Made by a program: the position numbers and the translations under genes. The notes below the pieces were generated by a model. It saw nothing but the letters and a program-made list of their open reading frames with translations, ran no database searches and was not told where the DNA came from. This document shows positions 4,369 to 64,000 of a DNA stretch of 64,000 nt, in pieces. Position 1 is the first letter of the stretch; the number at the start of each line of letters is the position of its first letter. Source of the stretch: Nitrospina sp. LS_NOB (GTDB lineage: Bacteria > Nitrospinota > Nitrospinia > Nitrospinales > VA-1); NCBI GenBank assembly GCA_001542995.1, contig LFLA01000003.1, positions 204,195-268,194 on the forward strand. The letters run 5' to 3'.

Positions 4369-4385
4369 CCTCTACCGAGGGAGGC
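4369..4385. repeat. Solo fragment of the ~200 bp element's inverted end
   Basis: CCTCTACCGAGGGAGGC is the exact reverse complement of 8843-8859, the left end of the ~200 bp element there. It lies 1 nt after the stop codon of the upstream gene. It continues into GC-rich repeat-like DNA (4386-4460) containing GCTACGCCGGGGG, up to the yajC leader. Confidence 0.6.
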
Positions 4386-7324: not shown

Positions 7325-7408
7325 CCGTTAGCCGCCGGTGGCAAAGTGCGATAGCTCATAGAGCCCAGGGTATTGTTGCTAGCCATCGTGATTTTCTTCC
7401 CAAGCTTT

Positions 7409-7465
7409 TACCCTTTCAGGGCATGAAGGCAAATAAAGAAATATCACAAGTGCCCCACAGGGGTA
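7409..7465 (-). repeat. Copy 1 of the ~39 bp hairpin module, with an adjoining half copy
   Basis: Read on the reverse strand, 7409-7447 gives GTGATATTTCTTTATTTGCC, then TTCATGCCCTGAAAGGGTA. This is the family pattern: CGTGATAT, a variable stretch ending near CCTTAAACTTCATG, then a CCCC-GNA-GGGG hairpin and TA. A second hairpin on the forward strand (TGCCCCACAGGGGTA, 7451-7465) follows. The rest of 7325-7606 shows no gene; 7325-7380 looks like a diverged copy of the gene-end module. Confidence 0.7.
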
Positions 7466-7606: not shown

Positions 7607-8347
7607 ATGAGTGTTTCCCCAAAACTTCAACTTCAGCAACTGATCCGTTTGCAGAATCTGGATGATGAGATTGGCGAGCATAAAAAACTGCTCGCTGAAA
7701 TTCCTGTTCAGTTGGATGCTGGTCGCTCGGAGCTGGAGGCTAAAAAGAAAATCCTTTCAATTGCTAAAGAAGAAATAGACACATTACAAAAAAATCGTAA
7801 GGCTATTGAGTCGGAGGTTCAGGAGGGAAATGACCATATGGCGAAAGCCAAGACGAAACTAACAGCGGTAAAAACCAATAAGGAATACACTGCTATTCTT
7901 ACCGAGGTGGATGCGATTAAGAAAAAGGTTGCGGGACTGGAAGATCAAGAGCTGGAAATCATGGAAGTTCTTGAAGAAAAGCAAAAGGAGATTCCAGAAA
8001 TCGAAAAAAAATGCAAGGAAGAGGATGCCCACTTCCAGGAATATAAAACAAAAAAAGATGGCGAGTTGAGCAGGATGAAGCAGGAGTTGGATGTCTTTAT
8101 CGCCAAGCGTGAGGGTGTGATGGGTCAACTCGAAAAAGTGATAATACAACGCTATGAAAAAATAGCGCAATCCCGCGAGGGTAGGGCAGTGGCGTTGTTA
8201 CAGGAAAATATTTGCCAGGGATGTTTCCAGCAGATTCTACCGCAGATGGTGATAGACGTTAAAGTGGGTGAAAAAATCCAGCAATGCTCAAATTGCCTGT
8301 GTTTTTTATATTGGGAAGAAATTCCAGAAGCCGCAACGCCGAAGTAA
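7607..8347 (+). CDS. Coiled-coil protein with C4-type zinc ribbon (DUF164/CT398 family)
   Basis: 246 residues. A long antiparallel coiled coil (about residues 10-185, rich in Glu/Lys heptads) is followed by a C-terminal zinc ribbon with CQGCF near residue 204 and CSNC near residue 226. This architecture defines the DUF164/CT398-like family, which is widespread and of uncertain function; homologues have been linked to secretion and to RNA-related roles. The last codons (ACG CCG AAG TAA) form one arm of the P1 helix of the RNase P RNA downstream, so gene and RNA overlap and probably share a transcript. Confidence 0.85.
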   Translation: MSVSPKLQLQQLIRLQNLDDEIGEHKKLLAEIPVQLDAGRSELEAKKKILSIAKEEIDTLQKNRKAIESEVQEGNDHMAKAKTKLTAVKTNKEYTAILTEVDAIKKKVAGLEDQELEIMEVLEEKQKEIPEIEKKCKEEDAHFQEYKTKKDGELSRMKQELDVFIAKREGVMGQLEKVIIQRYEKIAQSREGRAVALLQENICQGCFQQILPQMVIDVKVGEKIQQCSNCLCFLYWEEIPEAATPK

Positions 8348-8711
8348 ACCGGGTGATCGCTGTTTCGGCTTTATGGCCGGGAGAGAGGAAAGTCCGGGCT
8401 CCACAGGGCAGGATACTCCGTAACGCGGAGTGAGGGCGACCTTAAGGAAAGTGCCACAGAAAATACACGGCCTACCCGGCTCATGCCGGCGGCAAAGGTG
8501 AAAAGGCGAGGTAAGAGCTCACCAGTACCGTTGGTGACAGCGGTAGCTTGGTAAACCCTATCCGGAGCAAGATCAAATAGGAAAGTGCTTGAGGGCGGCC
8601 CGTCCGATACTTTCGGGTTGATTGCTTGAGCCTGCTGGCAACAGCAGGCCTAGATTAATGGTCACCACTTCATGCTTCATGAAGTACAAAACCCGGCTTA
8701 TGGTTTACTTC
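8341..8711 (+). ncRNA. rnpB: RNase P RNA (bacterial class A)
   Basis: The catalytic RNA of RNase P, which trims tRNA 5' leaders. Landmarks are clear: GAGGAAAGTCCGGGCTCC near 8385 (P4 5' strand), ACAGAAAAT near 8456, GGTAAGAGCTCACCAG near 8510, GGAGCAAGATCAAATAGG near 8563, and ACAAAACCCGGCTTA near 8686 (P4 3' strand). The closing P1 helix pairs GAAGTAAACC (8341-8350) with GGTTTACTTC (8702-8711); complementarity extends to 13 bp (8338-8350 with 8702-8714). The upstream coding region ends at 8347, so the 5' arm contains its stop codon. The ends are placed by analogy with the E. coli RNA, so they may be off by a few bases. Confidence 0.95.
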
Positions 8712-8721
8712 GGCTACCCGG

Positions 8722-8841
8722 CCTGCTAGGCGCAGGGCCAAGATGCAATAGCTTTTGTTTGCTGGCAAAGAGTTGTCTCGGCTTGAAGAGTTATTGCCCA
8801 ATTTACCCCGTTGAGGCATGAAGTTAATGATGGGATATCAC
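8722..8841. repeat. Gene-end module, Cys-independent CGGCTT module and copy 2 of the hairpin module
   Basis: Right after rnpB comes CCTGCTAGGCGCAGGGCCAA with GATGCAATAG, a variant of the gene-end module (CCACTAGGCGTGGGGCCAG, then GCAATA). Next, 8762-8798 carries GGCAAAGAGTTGTCTCGGCT with a following GAGTTATTGCCC; related copies lie at 18886 and 58754. Finally, 8804-8841 is a reverse-strand copy of the hairpin module (TACCCCGTTGAGGCATGAAG, ending in GATATCAC). It abuts the ~200 bp element. Confidence 0.7.
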
Positions 8842-9039
8842 AGCCTCCCTCGGTAGAGGAGACCTTTGTATAACCCCGAGATTACCCCTGCGAAGCACGA
8901 AGTTTAAGGAAAAATATCACGTCTTCGTCACGTTGTTCCTCAGAATGACAAAACAGCCCTTTATTGTCATGCTGAGCTTGTCGAAGCATCTCGCTTTTCT
9001 GCTTTATCGACTTACGCAAAGGTTCCTCGGTAGGGGCTG
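8841..9039 (-). mobile_element. MITE-like ~200 bp element with terminal inverted repeats, copy 1
   Basis: Both ends carry related inverted repeats: forward CAGCCTCCCTCGGTAG, AGGAGACCTTTGTATAA at 8841-8873, and its counterpart TTACGCAAAGGTTCCTCGGT, AGGGGCTG at 9012-9039. Inside, on the reverse strand, lie two GTCAT repeats (GCTTCGACAAGCTCAGCATG; GTCATTCTGAGGAACAACG) joined directly to hairpin-module copy 3 (8883-8921) by GACGAAGACGTGATAT. The copy at 62749-62950 has the same parts in the same order and nearly the same length (199 vs 202 bp). It encodes no credible protein. No target-site duplication could be recognised. Confidence 0.6.
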
Positions 9040-15386: not shown

Positions 15387-18940
<3,554 letters not shown>

Positions 18941-24166: not shown

Positions 24167-24313
24167 TCCCGGCGAACCGCCGGTGGCCGTGATATTTGTG
24201 ATATCCCCATCCTTAAACTCATGCCCCGAAGGGGTATGTGATAATTCAACAACTATTAAAATATTTTCTTCATACAAATCGGCACGATGAACCAAAAATG
24301 GTTGTAAAGTAAG
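24163..24313 (+). repeat. Repeat block with palindrome and hairpin module copy 5
   Basis: CCACCTAG at the stop codon is followed by CCCGGCGAACCGCCGG (palindromic; related to GGCGGTTCGCCGC at 55860 and 55958). At 24198-24236 is a full hairpin module: GTGATATCCCCATCCTTAAA, then CTCATGCCCCGAAGGGGTA. No gene lies between sdh and the pentapeptide gene. Confidence 0.7.
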
Positions 24314-26571: not shown

Positions 26572-27090
26572 ATGAATGAAGAAGAAAAAGTAGTTTCAGA
26601 AAAAGAGCTGAAACAGGAAGGAGAAATCACCCTGCTGGAAGGAAAACCATTCAATGGTGTTTGTATTGATTTCTATGAAAATGGACAGAAATCTTTCGAA
26701 GGACATTTCAAAAATGGAAAAGAAGAGGGTCTTCATATTGAATGGTACGAAAACGGGCAGAAATCCTGCGAAGGACATTTCAACAAAGGAAAAGAAGAGG
26801 GTCTTCATACTCAATGGTTTGAAGATGGGAAGAAAGAATTGGAAGGACAATACAAAGATGGTACTGAAGAGGGTCTTCATACTAGTTGGTATGAAAACGG
26901 ACAGAAAGCAGGTGAAGAACATTATAAAAATGGAAAAGAAGAGGGTCTTACGGTGATCTGGTATAAAAATGGACAAAAAAATATTGAGAAATATTACAAA
27001 AACGGAAAAGAAGAAGGACTTTGGATTGAATGGTCAGAAGAAGGAAAGAAAATATATGAGGTGCATTTCCAAGATGGAAATGAATTATAG
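26572..27090 (+). CDS. MORN-like (YwqK-type) repeat protein
   Basis: 172 residues made almost entirely of six tandem repeats of about 23 residues with the core WYENGQKxxEGHFKNGKEEG (near residues 35, 58, 81, 104, 127, 150). This is the MORN-variant/YwqK repeat. No signal peptide is visible. YwqK is annotated as a toxin-antitoxin component in some databases, but no partner toxin is next to it. DNA repeats within the gene (GGAAAAGAAGAGGGTCTTCA in several units) mean the repeat number could vary by recombination. Confidence 0.8.
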   Translation: MNEEEKVVSEKELKQEGEITLLEGKPFNGVCIDFYENGQKSFEGHFKNGKEEGLHIEWYENGQKSCEGHFNKGKEEGLHTQWFEDGKKELEGQYKDGTEEGLHTSWYENGQKAGEEHYKNGKEEGLTVIWYKNGQKNIEKYYKNGKEEGLWIEWSEEGKKIYEVHFQDGNEL

Positions 27091-50361: not shown

Positions 50362-50817
50362 TTCTACTCCCAACAACTTAATGTCGATAAGTTTTTATAA
50401 AGAATTTGCCCTGAGAAGCAAACCAACTCAAAAGAACTGAGATTTAGGGCCCTAAAAACGAAGAGGTGTGAAAATAACGGAGAAACTAAGGGGGCTTTAA
50501 ATAACTGATCCTGGCTAATAGGTATAACTCATTTCTCCTGAATAAGATACAAAAACCCACTAGGCGTACCCCTTCGAGGCATGAAGTACCCGTGCCCGGC
50601 ATGAAGGTTAAGGGAGAGGACATCACAACTGATGAAGGATCATAACATGCTGCCGACTAGCAGTGGCCCTTACTGGATTGCGAAAAGTTACCTCGGCCTG
50701 ATGATCGGTGTGTTTTGGTAGGGCTGGAGAAGAACAAGGGTGTGGTGACATGGTTGCACAATGCAACCACGATCCTTATATTTAAATAAACCCGCATTTT
50801 CAATACAGGGGGTCGTC
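50362..50817. repeat. Gene-free stretch with repeat modules
   Basis: No gene is apparent. CCCACTAGGCGTACC (50557-50570) is a partial gene-end module joined to a half hairpin module (TACCCCTTCGAGGCATGAAG, 50567-50586). Hairpin-module copy 7 follows on the reverse strand at 50587-50626 (TACCCGTGCCCGGCATGAAG, ending GGACATCAC). CGACTAGCAGTGGCCC (50652-50667) and GTTACCTCGGCCTGATG (50688-50704) are further module fragments. The promoter of the kinase-like gene must be after 50705. Confidence 0.6.
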
Positions 50818-55776: not shown

Positions 55777-55970
55777 TGCTCTGCCGGAGCGCAGGGCAAT
55801 GGCTCAATGGGTCGAGATAAACCCTTTGAGTACTAAAAACACATTACTCATTACCAGCGGCGGTTCGCCGCCCACTAGGCGTGGGGCCAGCGTGCAATAA
55901 CTCGTCAAGCCGCGAGAATGTTTGCCCGCGAGTTAAAAACATTACTTAATACCAGCGGCGGTTCGCCGCT
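55777..55970 (+). repeat. Two tandem copies of the gene-end element between aclB and aclA
   Basis: Unit 1 begins at the aclB stop (TAGTGCTCTGCCGGAGCGCA, GGGCAATGG) and ends with TTACCAGCGGCGGTTCGCCG C at 55871. Unit 2 begins CCACTAGGCGTGGGGCCAGC (55872-55891), GTGCAATAACTCG, and ends with the same ACCAGCGGCGGTTCGCCGC at 55969. Both contain TAAAAAC-ATTACT before that. The two are about 98 bp apart, diverged in the middle. The palindrome GGCGGTTCGCC can form a hairpin that could affect aclA expression. Confidence 0.75.
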
Positions 55971-58713: not shown

Positions 58714-58890
58714 CCACTAGGCGTGGGGCCAGCGTGGAATAGATTTCGCTGGCGAGCAAAGAGTTATCTAGGCTTTACGAGTTGTTGTCCAGTTGCAACC
58801 CCTGCTAAGGGGCTAAGAGCCGGAGCAATTGTGTGGCAAACGCTCGCTTGTGATGCCTGGCCTTTGCTTTCATGCCCCGTAAGGGTACAC
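58714..58890 (+). repeat. Composite repeat after aclA: gene-end, CGGCT-type and hairpin modules
   Basis: ACCACTAGGCGTGGGGCCAG (58714-58733) follows the aclA stop, then CGTGGAATAG. At 58752-58791 is GGCGAGCAAAGAGTTATCTA, GGCTTTACGAGTTG. Hairpin-module copy 8 is at 58849-58887 (TTGTGATGCCTGG, CATGCCCCGTAAGGGTA). AACCCCTGCTAAGGGGC (58797-58813) is another hairpin. The order of modules is the same as after ligA except that the last two are exchanged. Confidence 0.72.
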
Positions 58891-62748: not shown

Positions 62749-62950
62749 CAGCCCCTCCCTGTCAGGGAGACCTTTGCGTAAGTCGAAAAAGGATAAAGAC
62801 GAGATTCTTCACTGCGTTCAGCATGACAGGAAACGCCGGTTTGTCATCCTTGAGGAGCCGGAGGCGACGAAGACGTGATATTGTTCCAAAGCCCTCGTGC
62901 CCCGCAGGGGTAATCTCGGGTTATGCAAAGCTCGCCTTGTCAGGAGGGGA
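62749..62950 (+). mobile_element. MITE-like ~200 bp element with terminal inverted repeats, copy 2
   Basis: Left end CAGCCCCTCCCTGTCAGGGA, GACCTTTGCGTAA (62749-62782); right end TTATGCAAAGCTCGCCTTGT, CAGGAGGGG (62921-62949), its imperfect inverse. Inside are GAGATTCTTCACTGCGTTCA, GCATGACAGG, GTCATCCTTGAGGAGCCGG and the junction GACGAAGACGTGATAT into hairpin-module copy 9 (62874-62912). Organisation and length match 8841-9039. No coding potential. The rest of 62587-63006 shows no gene. Confidence 0.6.
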
Positions 62951-62984: not shown

Positions 62985-63015
62985 CTGTCGCCCATTGCCC
63001 GCCACGCTAGTGGCC
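62985..63015 (-). repeat. Gene-end module carrying the gcvPB stop codon
   Basis: On the reverse strand GGGCCACTAG (63007-63016 region) contains the gcvPB stop and runs on as CGTGGCGGGCAATGGGCGAC. The GGCCACTAG-CGTGG core is the same as at ligA. Confidence 0.72.
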
Positions 63016-64000
63016 CGGCCAGCGGAGTTTGGGGTTGCGGGCGGCCTGGGCTTCGTCTGGACGCGACACTTTTGACAGCCTTGGCGAGGCATGAAAGCTT
63101 TCAGGATCTTCCTTGCCTTTTTTGGCGATGGACTTCATGGCCTCGATGAAGTCGTCGAGGGTCTCTTTCGATTCTGTTTCGGTTGGCTCGATCATCAACG
63201 CCCCTTTAACGATCAGCGGGAAATAAACCGTTGGCGGGTGAAAGCCGTGGTCGATGAGCGCCTTGGCAAAATCCATTGTTGTGATGCCTTGTCCTTTATC
63301 GTTGAAAACGCATTCATGCAGGCTGGCTCCGGTGAAGGGCAGGTGGAACGTGTCCTTCAGTCGGGCGCGAATATAGTTGGCGTTCAGCACAGCGGATTGC
63401 GCCGCTTGCCGGATGCCTTCGGGTCCAAGTGTGCGGATGTAGGCATAGGCGCGTAACAACATGCCGAAATTACCGTTGAACGATTTCAGTCTTCCGACGC
63501 TTTCGGGTCGGTCCGCATTAAGCCGATATTTTGATCCGACTTTCTCCACCACTGGCACGGGCAGGTAGGGTTCGAGAATATCTTTGATGCAAACGGGACC
63601 GGCGCCCGGTCCGCCACCGCCATGCGGAGTCGAGAAAGTTTTGTGCAGGTTGATGTGCAGCACATCGATTCCCATATCTCCCATTTTAGCGATACCCATG
63701 ATGGCGTTGAGATTGGCGCCATCGCAATAGACCAAGCCGCCTTTTTTGTGGACGATCTCCGTAATTTTTAAAATATCTTTCTCGAACATCCCCAGTGTGT
63801 TGGGATTGGTCAGCATGATCGCCGCTGTTTCTTCATCCATCGCCGCTTCGAGTTTTGCGACATCAATCGTTCCTTCGGCGTTGGATGGCAGTTGAATGGA
63901 CTTGTATCCACATAACGTAGCACTGGCCGGATTGGTGCCGTGGGCCGAGTCGGGCAATAACACTTTTTTTCTGGGGTTGCCTTTTGCCGAATGATAGGCG
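63007..64000 (-). CDS. gcvPB: Glycine dehydrogenase (decarboxylating) subunit 2, partial
   Basis: The C-terminal 330 codons; the start lies beyond the right edge. The PLP-binding Lys is in INLHKTFSTPHGGGGPGAGP, and other conserved parts are DSAHGTNPASATLCGY, GLVYCDGANLNAIMG, and FHPPTVYFPLIVKGALMIEP. It is the P-protein of the glycine cleavage system, split-type beta subunit. It ends KLRWPGH; its GGC CAC TAG end lies in the dispersed module, so the last residues come from the repeat. Confidence 0.93.
   Translation of the reverse strand, partial: AYHSAKGNPRKKVLLPDSAHGTNPASATLCGYKSIQLPSNAEGTIDVAKLEAAMDEETAAIMLTNPNTLGMFEKDILKITEIVHKKGGLVYCDGANLNAIMGIAKMGDMGIDVLHINLHKTFSTPHGGGGPGAGPVCIKDILEPYLPVPVVEKVGSKYRLNADRPESVGRLKSFNGNFGMLLRAYAYIRTLGPEGIRQAAQSAVLNANYIRARLKDTFHLPFTGASLHECVFNDKGQGITTMDFAKALIDHGFHPPTVYFPLIVKGALMIEPTETESKETLDDFIEAMKSIAKKGKEDPESFHASPRLSKVSRPDEAQAARNPKLRWPGH

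Follow-up and report, generated by a model that had tools for sequence, protein, structure and literature searches.

What kind of element is the repeat of which two long copies lie in inverse orientation in a stretch of 64,000 nucleotides from Nitrospina sp. LS_NOB, where does it end, and by which enzyme was it moved? The whole stretch (G000:C5:204195-268194, hereafter the window) belongs to a genome of 2.65 Mb in 26 contigs. A preliminary description had read the two copies as a MITE-like, possibly composite element of 202 and 199 bp with CAGCC-type ends, and had proposed checking for further copies, empty sites in relatives, target duplications and a transposase with similar ends; all these checks were run. 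Very probably, the element represents a non-autonomous IS5-type MITE family with a REP dimer as its body, moved in trans, into which a hairpin module (module M) was nested later. Comparison of the sequences bore out the inverse orientation and the identical order of the internal parts, including the common junction GACGAAGACGTGATAT and the hairpin module.

A total of 107 genome matches to the copy at 62.7 kb were identified by BLAST. By comparing the copies by eye, the conserved terminal inverted repeat (TIR) was recognized as the 15-bp sequence GAGACCTTTGC(A/G)TAA, for which 155 genome matches were detected with up to two mismatches, as against 10 for a reversed-pattern control. These matches yielded 54 candidate TIR pairs, of which 51 were retained; the pairs were gathered by search and in limited stretches of the genome, and the pair table is not guaranteed to be complete. 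The genome thus contains about 50 paired copies of a short, non-coding element with 114-382 bp between the paired TIRs, mostly 127-132 and 165-170 bp. The commonest form genome-wide is the shorter one of about 129 bp without the hairpin module, while the two copies in the window are long forms of 169 and 168 bp (Table 1).

Table 1. Features of the MITE copies, their target sites and module M in the window
Feature	Position	Strand	Evidence or remark
MITE copy 1, long form, 169 bp	62767..62935	+	TIR pair and target duplication; G013 and G004 empty, G003 short form
Left TIR of copy 1, GAGACCTTTGCGTAA	62767..62781	+	
Right TIR of copy 1, TTATGCAAAGCTCGC	62921..62935	-	2 mismatches
Left target duplication of copy 1, CCTGTCAGG	62758..62766		
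Right target duplication of copy 1, CTTGTCAGG	62936..62944		single CTTGTCAGG at empty site in G013
Target DNA, left palindrome arm	62749..62757		outer end in the preliminary description; kept in relatives without element
REP-like arm 1, TGTC tag inward	62802..62828	-	sequence; TGTC/CGTC motif in most copies
REP-like arm 2, TGTCATCC...GACGAAGA/ATCTCG, split by module	62842..62918	+	unbroken in short copies L004, L019, L021
Nested module M in copy 1, CGTGATAT...GCCCCGCAGGGGTA	62874..62912	+	model R1, 52.8 bits; orthologous G003 MITE without it
MITE copy 2, long form, 168 bp, downstream of rnpB	8859..9026	-	TIR pair and duplication
Target duplication of copy 2, TCGGTAGAG	8850..8858		
Target duplication of copy 2, TCGGTAGGG	9027..9035		
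Nested module M in copy 2	8883..8921	-	50.4 bits
Stand-alone module M in another dispersed repeat	18851..18889	+	55.3 bits
Stand-alone module M	7408..7446	-	46.8 bits
Stand-alone module M, directly outside MITE copy 2	8803..8842	-	43.7 bits
Stand-alone module M	24199..24237	+	42.2 bits
Stand-alone module M	58849..58888	+	34.7 bits
Stand-alone module M	50586..50625	-	33.7 bits
Unoccupied target-type palindrome CCCTC-TACC-GAGGG, outside element	4369..4385		no TIR

The sequences directly outside the TIRs were then compared within each pair. Exact 9-bp target duplications were found in 11 of the 51 pairs (null expectation from re-paired flanks, 0.24), and in 19 of the 51 when one mismatch was allowed (null 0.46). 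Exact duplications of 6 bp (eight pairs; null 0.34) and of 5 bp (three pairs; null 0.20) add up to 11 (null 0.5), and those of 7, 8 or 10-12 bp were found in none of the 51 pairs. The duplications are thus far more frequent than in shuffled pairings, and their lengths fall into two sharply separated classes, 9 bp and 5-6 bp, for elements with an identical TIR. About a third of the paired copies lack a clear duplication, perhaps as a result of recombination between copies. The targets are often palindromic: the mean stem in the set with clear duplications is 5.27 as against 4.10 for re-paired flanks, with a maximum of 4.67 in 500 re-pairings. The preference for palindromes is well supported as real, though not precisely measured because the pair list is mismatch-limited and a clear duplication is present in 30 of the 51 pairs. 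Chloroflexi elements with the same TIR were observed with duplications of 5-6 bp, many of which lie in hairpin loops, for example CCCGCCTTCGCGGG.

The insertion site of copy 1 could be followed in relatives, its neighboring gene at 63007-63963 being present with 90-97% identity in most genomes of the genus. At the orthologous site (62767), G013 carries CCCCTCCTTGTCAGGAGGGG, with a single copy of the 9-mer and without the element, and G004 is likewise empty. G003 carries the same insertion in the short form, without module M. One orthologous locus within one genus thus displays stepwise nesting, from empty site to MITE to MITE plus module M, in which the module was presumably gained in the lineage of the LS_NOB genome and not lost in G003. 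For copy 2, next to rnpB, a TIR pair was found in none of the relatives examined, and the intergenic DNA there is too diverged among them to define a precise empty site.

Module M is a hairpin repeat of 38-40 nt with the arrangement (X)GTGATAT...TTC(Y)TGCCCC-GCA-GGGGTA. The base X is the complement of Y in 65 of the 73 instances (C-G, 47; T-A, 10; A-T, 8), a count that represents few independent changes because the X/Y pairs follow three subfamilies. By a covariance model, at least 155 matches were detected in the genome, part of the candidates having been scored, and ten matches above 20 bits in the window. Stand-alone copies confirm the early suggestion that the hairpin is independent of the larger element. 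The site of its insertion in the MITE is GAAGA^ATC: ATC follows on the right in 27 of the 32 copies having GAAGA or GAAGG on the left, and MITE copies without the module are unbroken at this site. The term "composite" was therefore correct, in that an independent repeat was secondarily inserted at GAAGA^ATC. The repeat hosting the module at 18851 likewise exists in an unbroken version, at 58750 of the window and in G015; no target duplication is evident at module M insertions. A dispersed repeat, GGCGTGGGGCCAGCGTGCAATAGC...GGCGAGCAAAGAGTTATCTCGGCT, which is a frequent host of module M, was observed at 8723-8750, 18807-18834, 55872-55899 and 58714-58741 of the window, and at loci L264 and L272.

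The transposase was looked for through the TIRs. Pairs of TIRs 105-135 bp apart were found in 24 stretches of other genomes, the hosts of which are Chloroflexi, Syntrophales/Syntrophaceae, Desulfobacterales, Pseudomonadales, Ca. Spongiihabitans and Bacteroidales; no TIR pair was found on viral contigs. In a Chloroflexi bin/MAG (L138), the same ends flank an IS5-family transposase in an element of 1190 bp with a 6-bp duplication, CCTTCG. With this transposase as a query, complete IS5 elements with the same TIRs were identified in the genus (L162, 1165 bp), the family (L164, 1154 bp) and the order (L163, 1212 bp) of the LS_NOB genome. Perfect 9-bp duplications, of the length seen for the MITE, flank L163 and L164 (GTTCTAAAA and CTTCGTAAG); no clear target duplication was found at L162. 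All four transposases exceed the IS5_4 cut-off (NF033581) and belong by this measure to the IS5 family, and these autonomous partners are all in other genomes. In 44 of the 51 MITE copies one TIR is followed by GTC, as at the left ends of L162 and L163. In the LS_NOB genome itself, a PF01609 search detected no DDE_Tnp_1 transposase; the query transposase matched a fragment, 53% identical, which abuts and is cut by a MITE. Genomes related at the level of genus, family and order thus contain the predicted transposase with similar ends, of which the own genome retains this fragment only. A TIR pair of 2.2 kb on contig C1 was considered as an autonomous copy and rejected; as read from its translation, it encloses a methionine sulfoxide reductase-like gene and no transposase. 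Between the MITE body and the IS interior, no obvious similarity was found past about 18 bp at one end, and therefore the MITE is no simple internal deletion of the known IS relatives.

The many copies, the target duplications, the orthologous empty site and the same-ended transposase in related genomes agree with the original designation as a MITE. Membership in the IS5 class of MITEs, as judged from the sequence, is well supported because related genomes hold complete IS5 elements with the same ends and 9-bp duplications. In the proposed mechanism, an IS5-family DDE transposase (NCBIfam NF033581 group) would recognize in trans the 15-bp ends and move the unit of 129-170 bp, inserting it preferably in short palindromes, for instance CCCTCCC-TTCATA-GGGAGGG, with duplication of 9 (or 5-6) bp. 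The body would be a head-to-head pair of TGTC/CGTC-type REP palindromes, and the long form would arise when the separate module M of about 39 bp inserts at GAAGA^ATC of one REP arm. The ends, the duplications, the empty site, the autonomous relatives whose ends and duplication length are the same, and the nesting are the parts of this scheme that can be read from the sequence. An IS5-type transposase presumably moved the copies of the LS_NOB genome, where mobility would be past or would depend on an IS5 copy that is unassembled or lost.

Three other explanations were weighed against the IS5-type MITE. The REP-like body and the presence in the own genome of one RAYT-like gene (328 aa) fit a REP/REPIN-type element whose active ends would be the REP arms and the hairpin and whose mobility would come from a Y1 tyrosine transposase (RAYT), but precise TIRs and 9-bp duplications are traits of DDE transposons. 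Moreover, the RAYT-like gene (L031, G000:C1:64057-64395) is flanked by an inverted repeat of its own, GGGTCAAGTCCACTATTG, unrelated to the MITE ends, so that the association of a RAYT gene with the repeats expected for a REPIN was not found; Y1_Tnp is present in just 4 of 16 genomes of the genus, whereas parts of the element were matched in 13 of 16, many via the module part. This explanation is very unlikely. A link of module M itself to RAYT was also considered and is unsupported, given the different repeats flanking RAYT and the same restricted occurrence of Y1_Tnp.

Spread of a non-mobile mosaic repeat by recombination and gene conversion alone would agree with the common arrays and mosaic combinations of body and module, and with copies devoid of duplications, but it is highly improbable, and refuted as the main mechanism, in the face of unique palindromic targets with duplications and of the orthologous empty site; recombination probably reshuffles the MITE bodies after insertion. 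The larger CAGCC-ended element of 199-202 bp has next to no likelihood. It is suggested by the mutual inversion of the outer flanks at each copy, but these flanks differ between the copies, are palindromic target DNA containing the duplication, and persist in element-free relatives, the empty sites of which refute the larger element. On either side, the end had been set some 15 bp beyond its true position; the outer sequence is target DNA of which the inner 9 bp are duplicated. The supposed solo end at 4369-4385 is not part of the element: it matches, over 17 bases, the outer flank of the copy at 8.9 kb only.

With respect to its body, the IS5-type MITE resembles the CGTC-tagged REPs (PMC3733652) in the TGTC/CGTC tag, the AT at the stem start and the head-to-head dimer, the orientation being read from the sequence. 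The motif (T/C)GTCAT is present in 46-49 of 52 copies, usually in both arms and facing inward; by eye, the arms pair imperfectly, the reference for CGTC-type REPs being a stem of 8-9 bp and a loop of 4-5 nt. CGTC/TGTC-tagged REPs are mostly head-to-head dimers for which no dedicated transposase was found, and their spread is stated as open (PMC3733652). Unlike these, the REP dimer described here sits between IS5-type TIRs. It offers a clear example of REP-like palindromes moved by IS5-type ends, complete with the ends themselves, target duplications, an empty site and a partner transposase. In the foreign MITEs, the density of (T/C)GTCAT in the bodies (15 in 2.2 kb) is 35 times that in the flanks (33 in 166 kb). 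Because several of these MITEs are members of a single family within one genome, the independent cases number about four; the remaining bodies contain other palindromes or none recognized. This suggests that MITEs with the same TIR in other phyla often carry CGTC-type REPs too. A wider reading, rather doubtful at present, would make IS5-type MITEs the general carriers of CGTC/TGTC-type REPs, with the same 15-bp TIR around lineage-local REP palindromes (in the LS_NOB genome, two Chloroflexi bins and two Syntrophales-group genomes), and module M an independent mobile element of about 39 bp that enters REPs and other repeats at fixed positions and leaves no target duplication. If such MITEs were general carriers of REPs, bodies between GAGACCTTTGCRTAA pairs should be enriched in REPs relative to matched intergenic DNA.

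This kind of element is already known, while the MITE family itself is new; what merits further attention is its REP cargo, together with the nested module. The BrickBuilt MITE of Porphyromonas gingivalis (PMC4596501) similarly has IS5-family-like ends (GAGACCTTTGCA in the best-preserved copies, Table 2 of that paper), no internal transposase and a repeat as its body; it differs in that the body is a 23-nt minisatellite instead of a REP dimer and that the target duplications are irregular. The TIR core GAGACCTTTGC and an IS5-family transposase are shared with ISNme1 (TIR, GAGACCTTTGCAAAA; PMC4596501) and with a copy annotated as ISAba23 on CP119201, one end of which has one mismatch to the core. 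These IS are, however, autonomous (about 1.2 kb for the IS relatives identified in this analysis), and their ends continue with AAAA or ACGAA instead of (A/G)TAA. MITECca01 of Cardinium (PMC9769881) is a MITE of about 240 bp having the TIR and adjacent bases in common with its parental IS, but the parent is IS982 and intact parental copies are present in the same genome.

In an Rfam search of the window, RNase P alone was matched, and a bacterial class A RNase P RNA gene was located at 8341-8715. The fold of the whole element was unremarkable (z = -1.7). At locus L061 (about 620-1000), a MITE-like left end was observed of which the right TIR is lost, and the array at this locus is bounded by a direct duplication of about 25 bp, TCATTTAAATAC(T/C)CCTGCTGAATA. 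A tandem 72-nt repeat lies inside an open frame at 26656-27087 of the window, with five overlapping 144-nt copies at a spacing of 72 nt.
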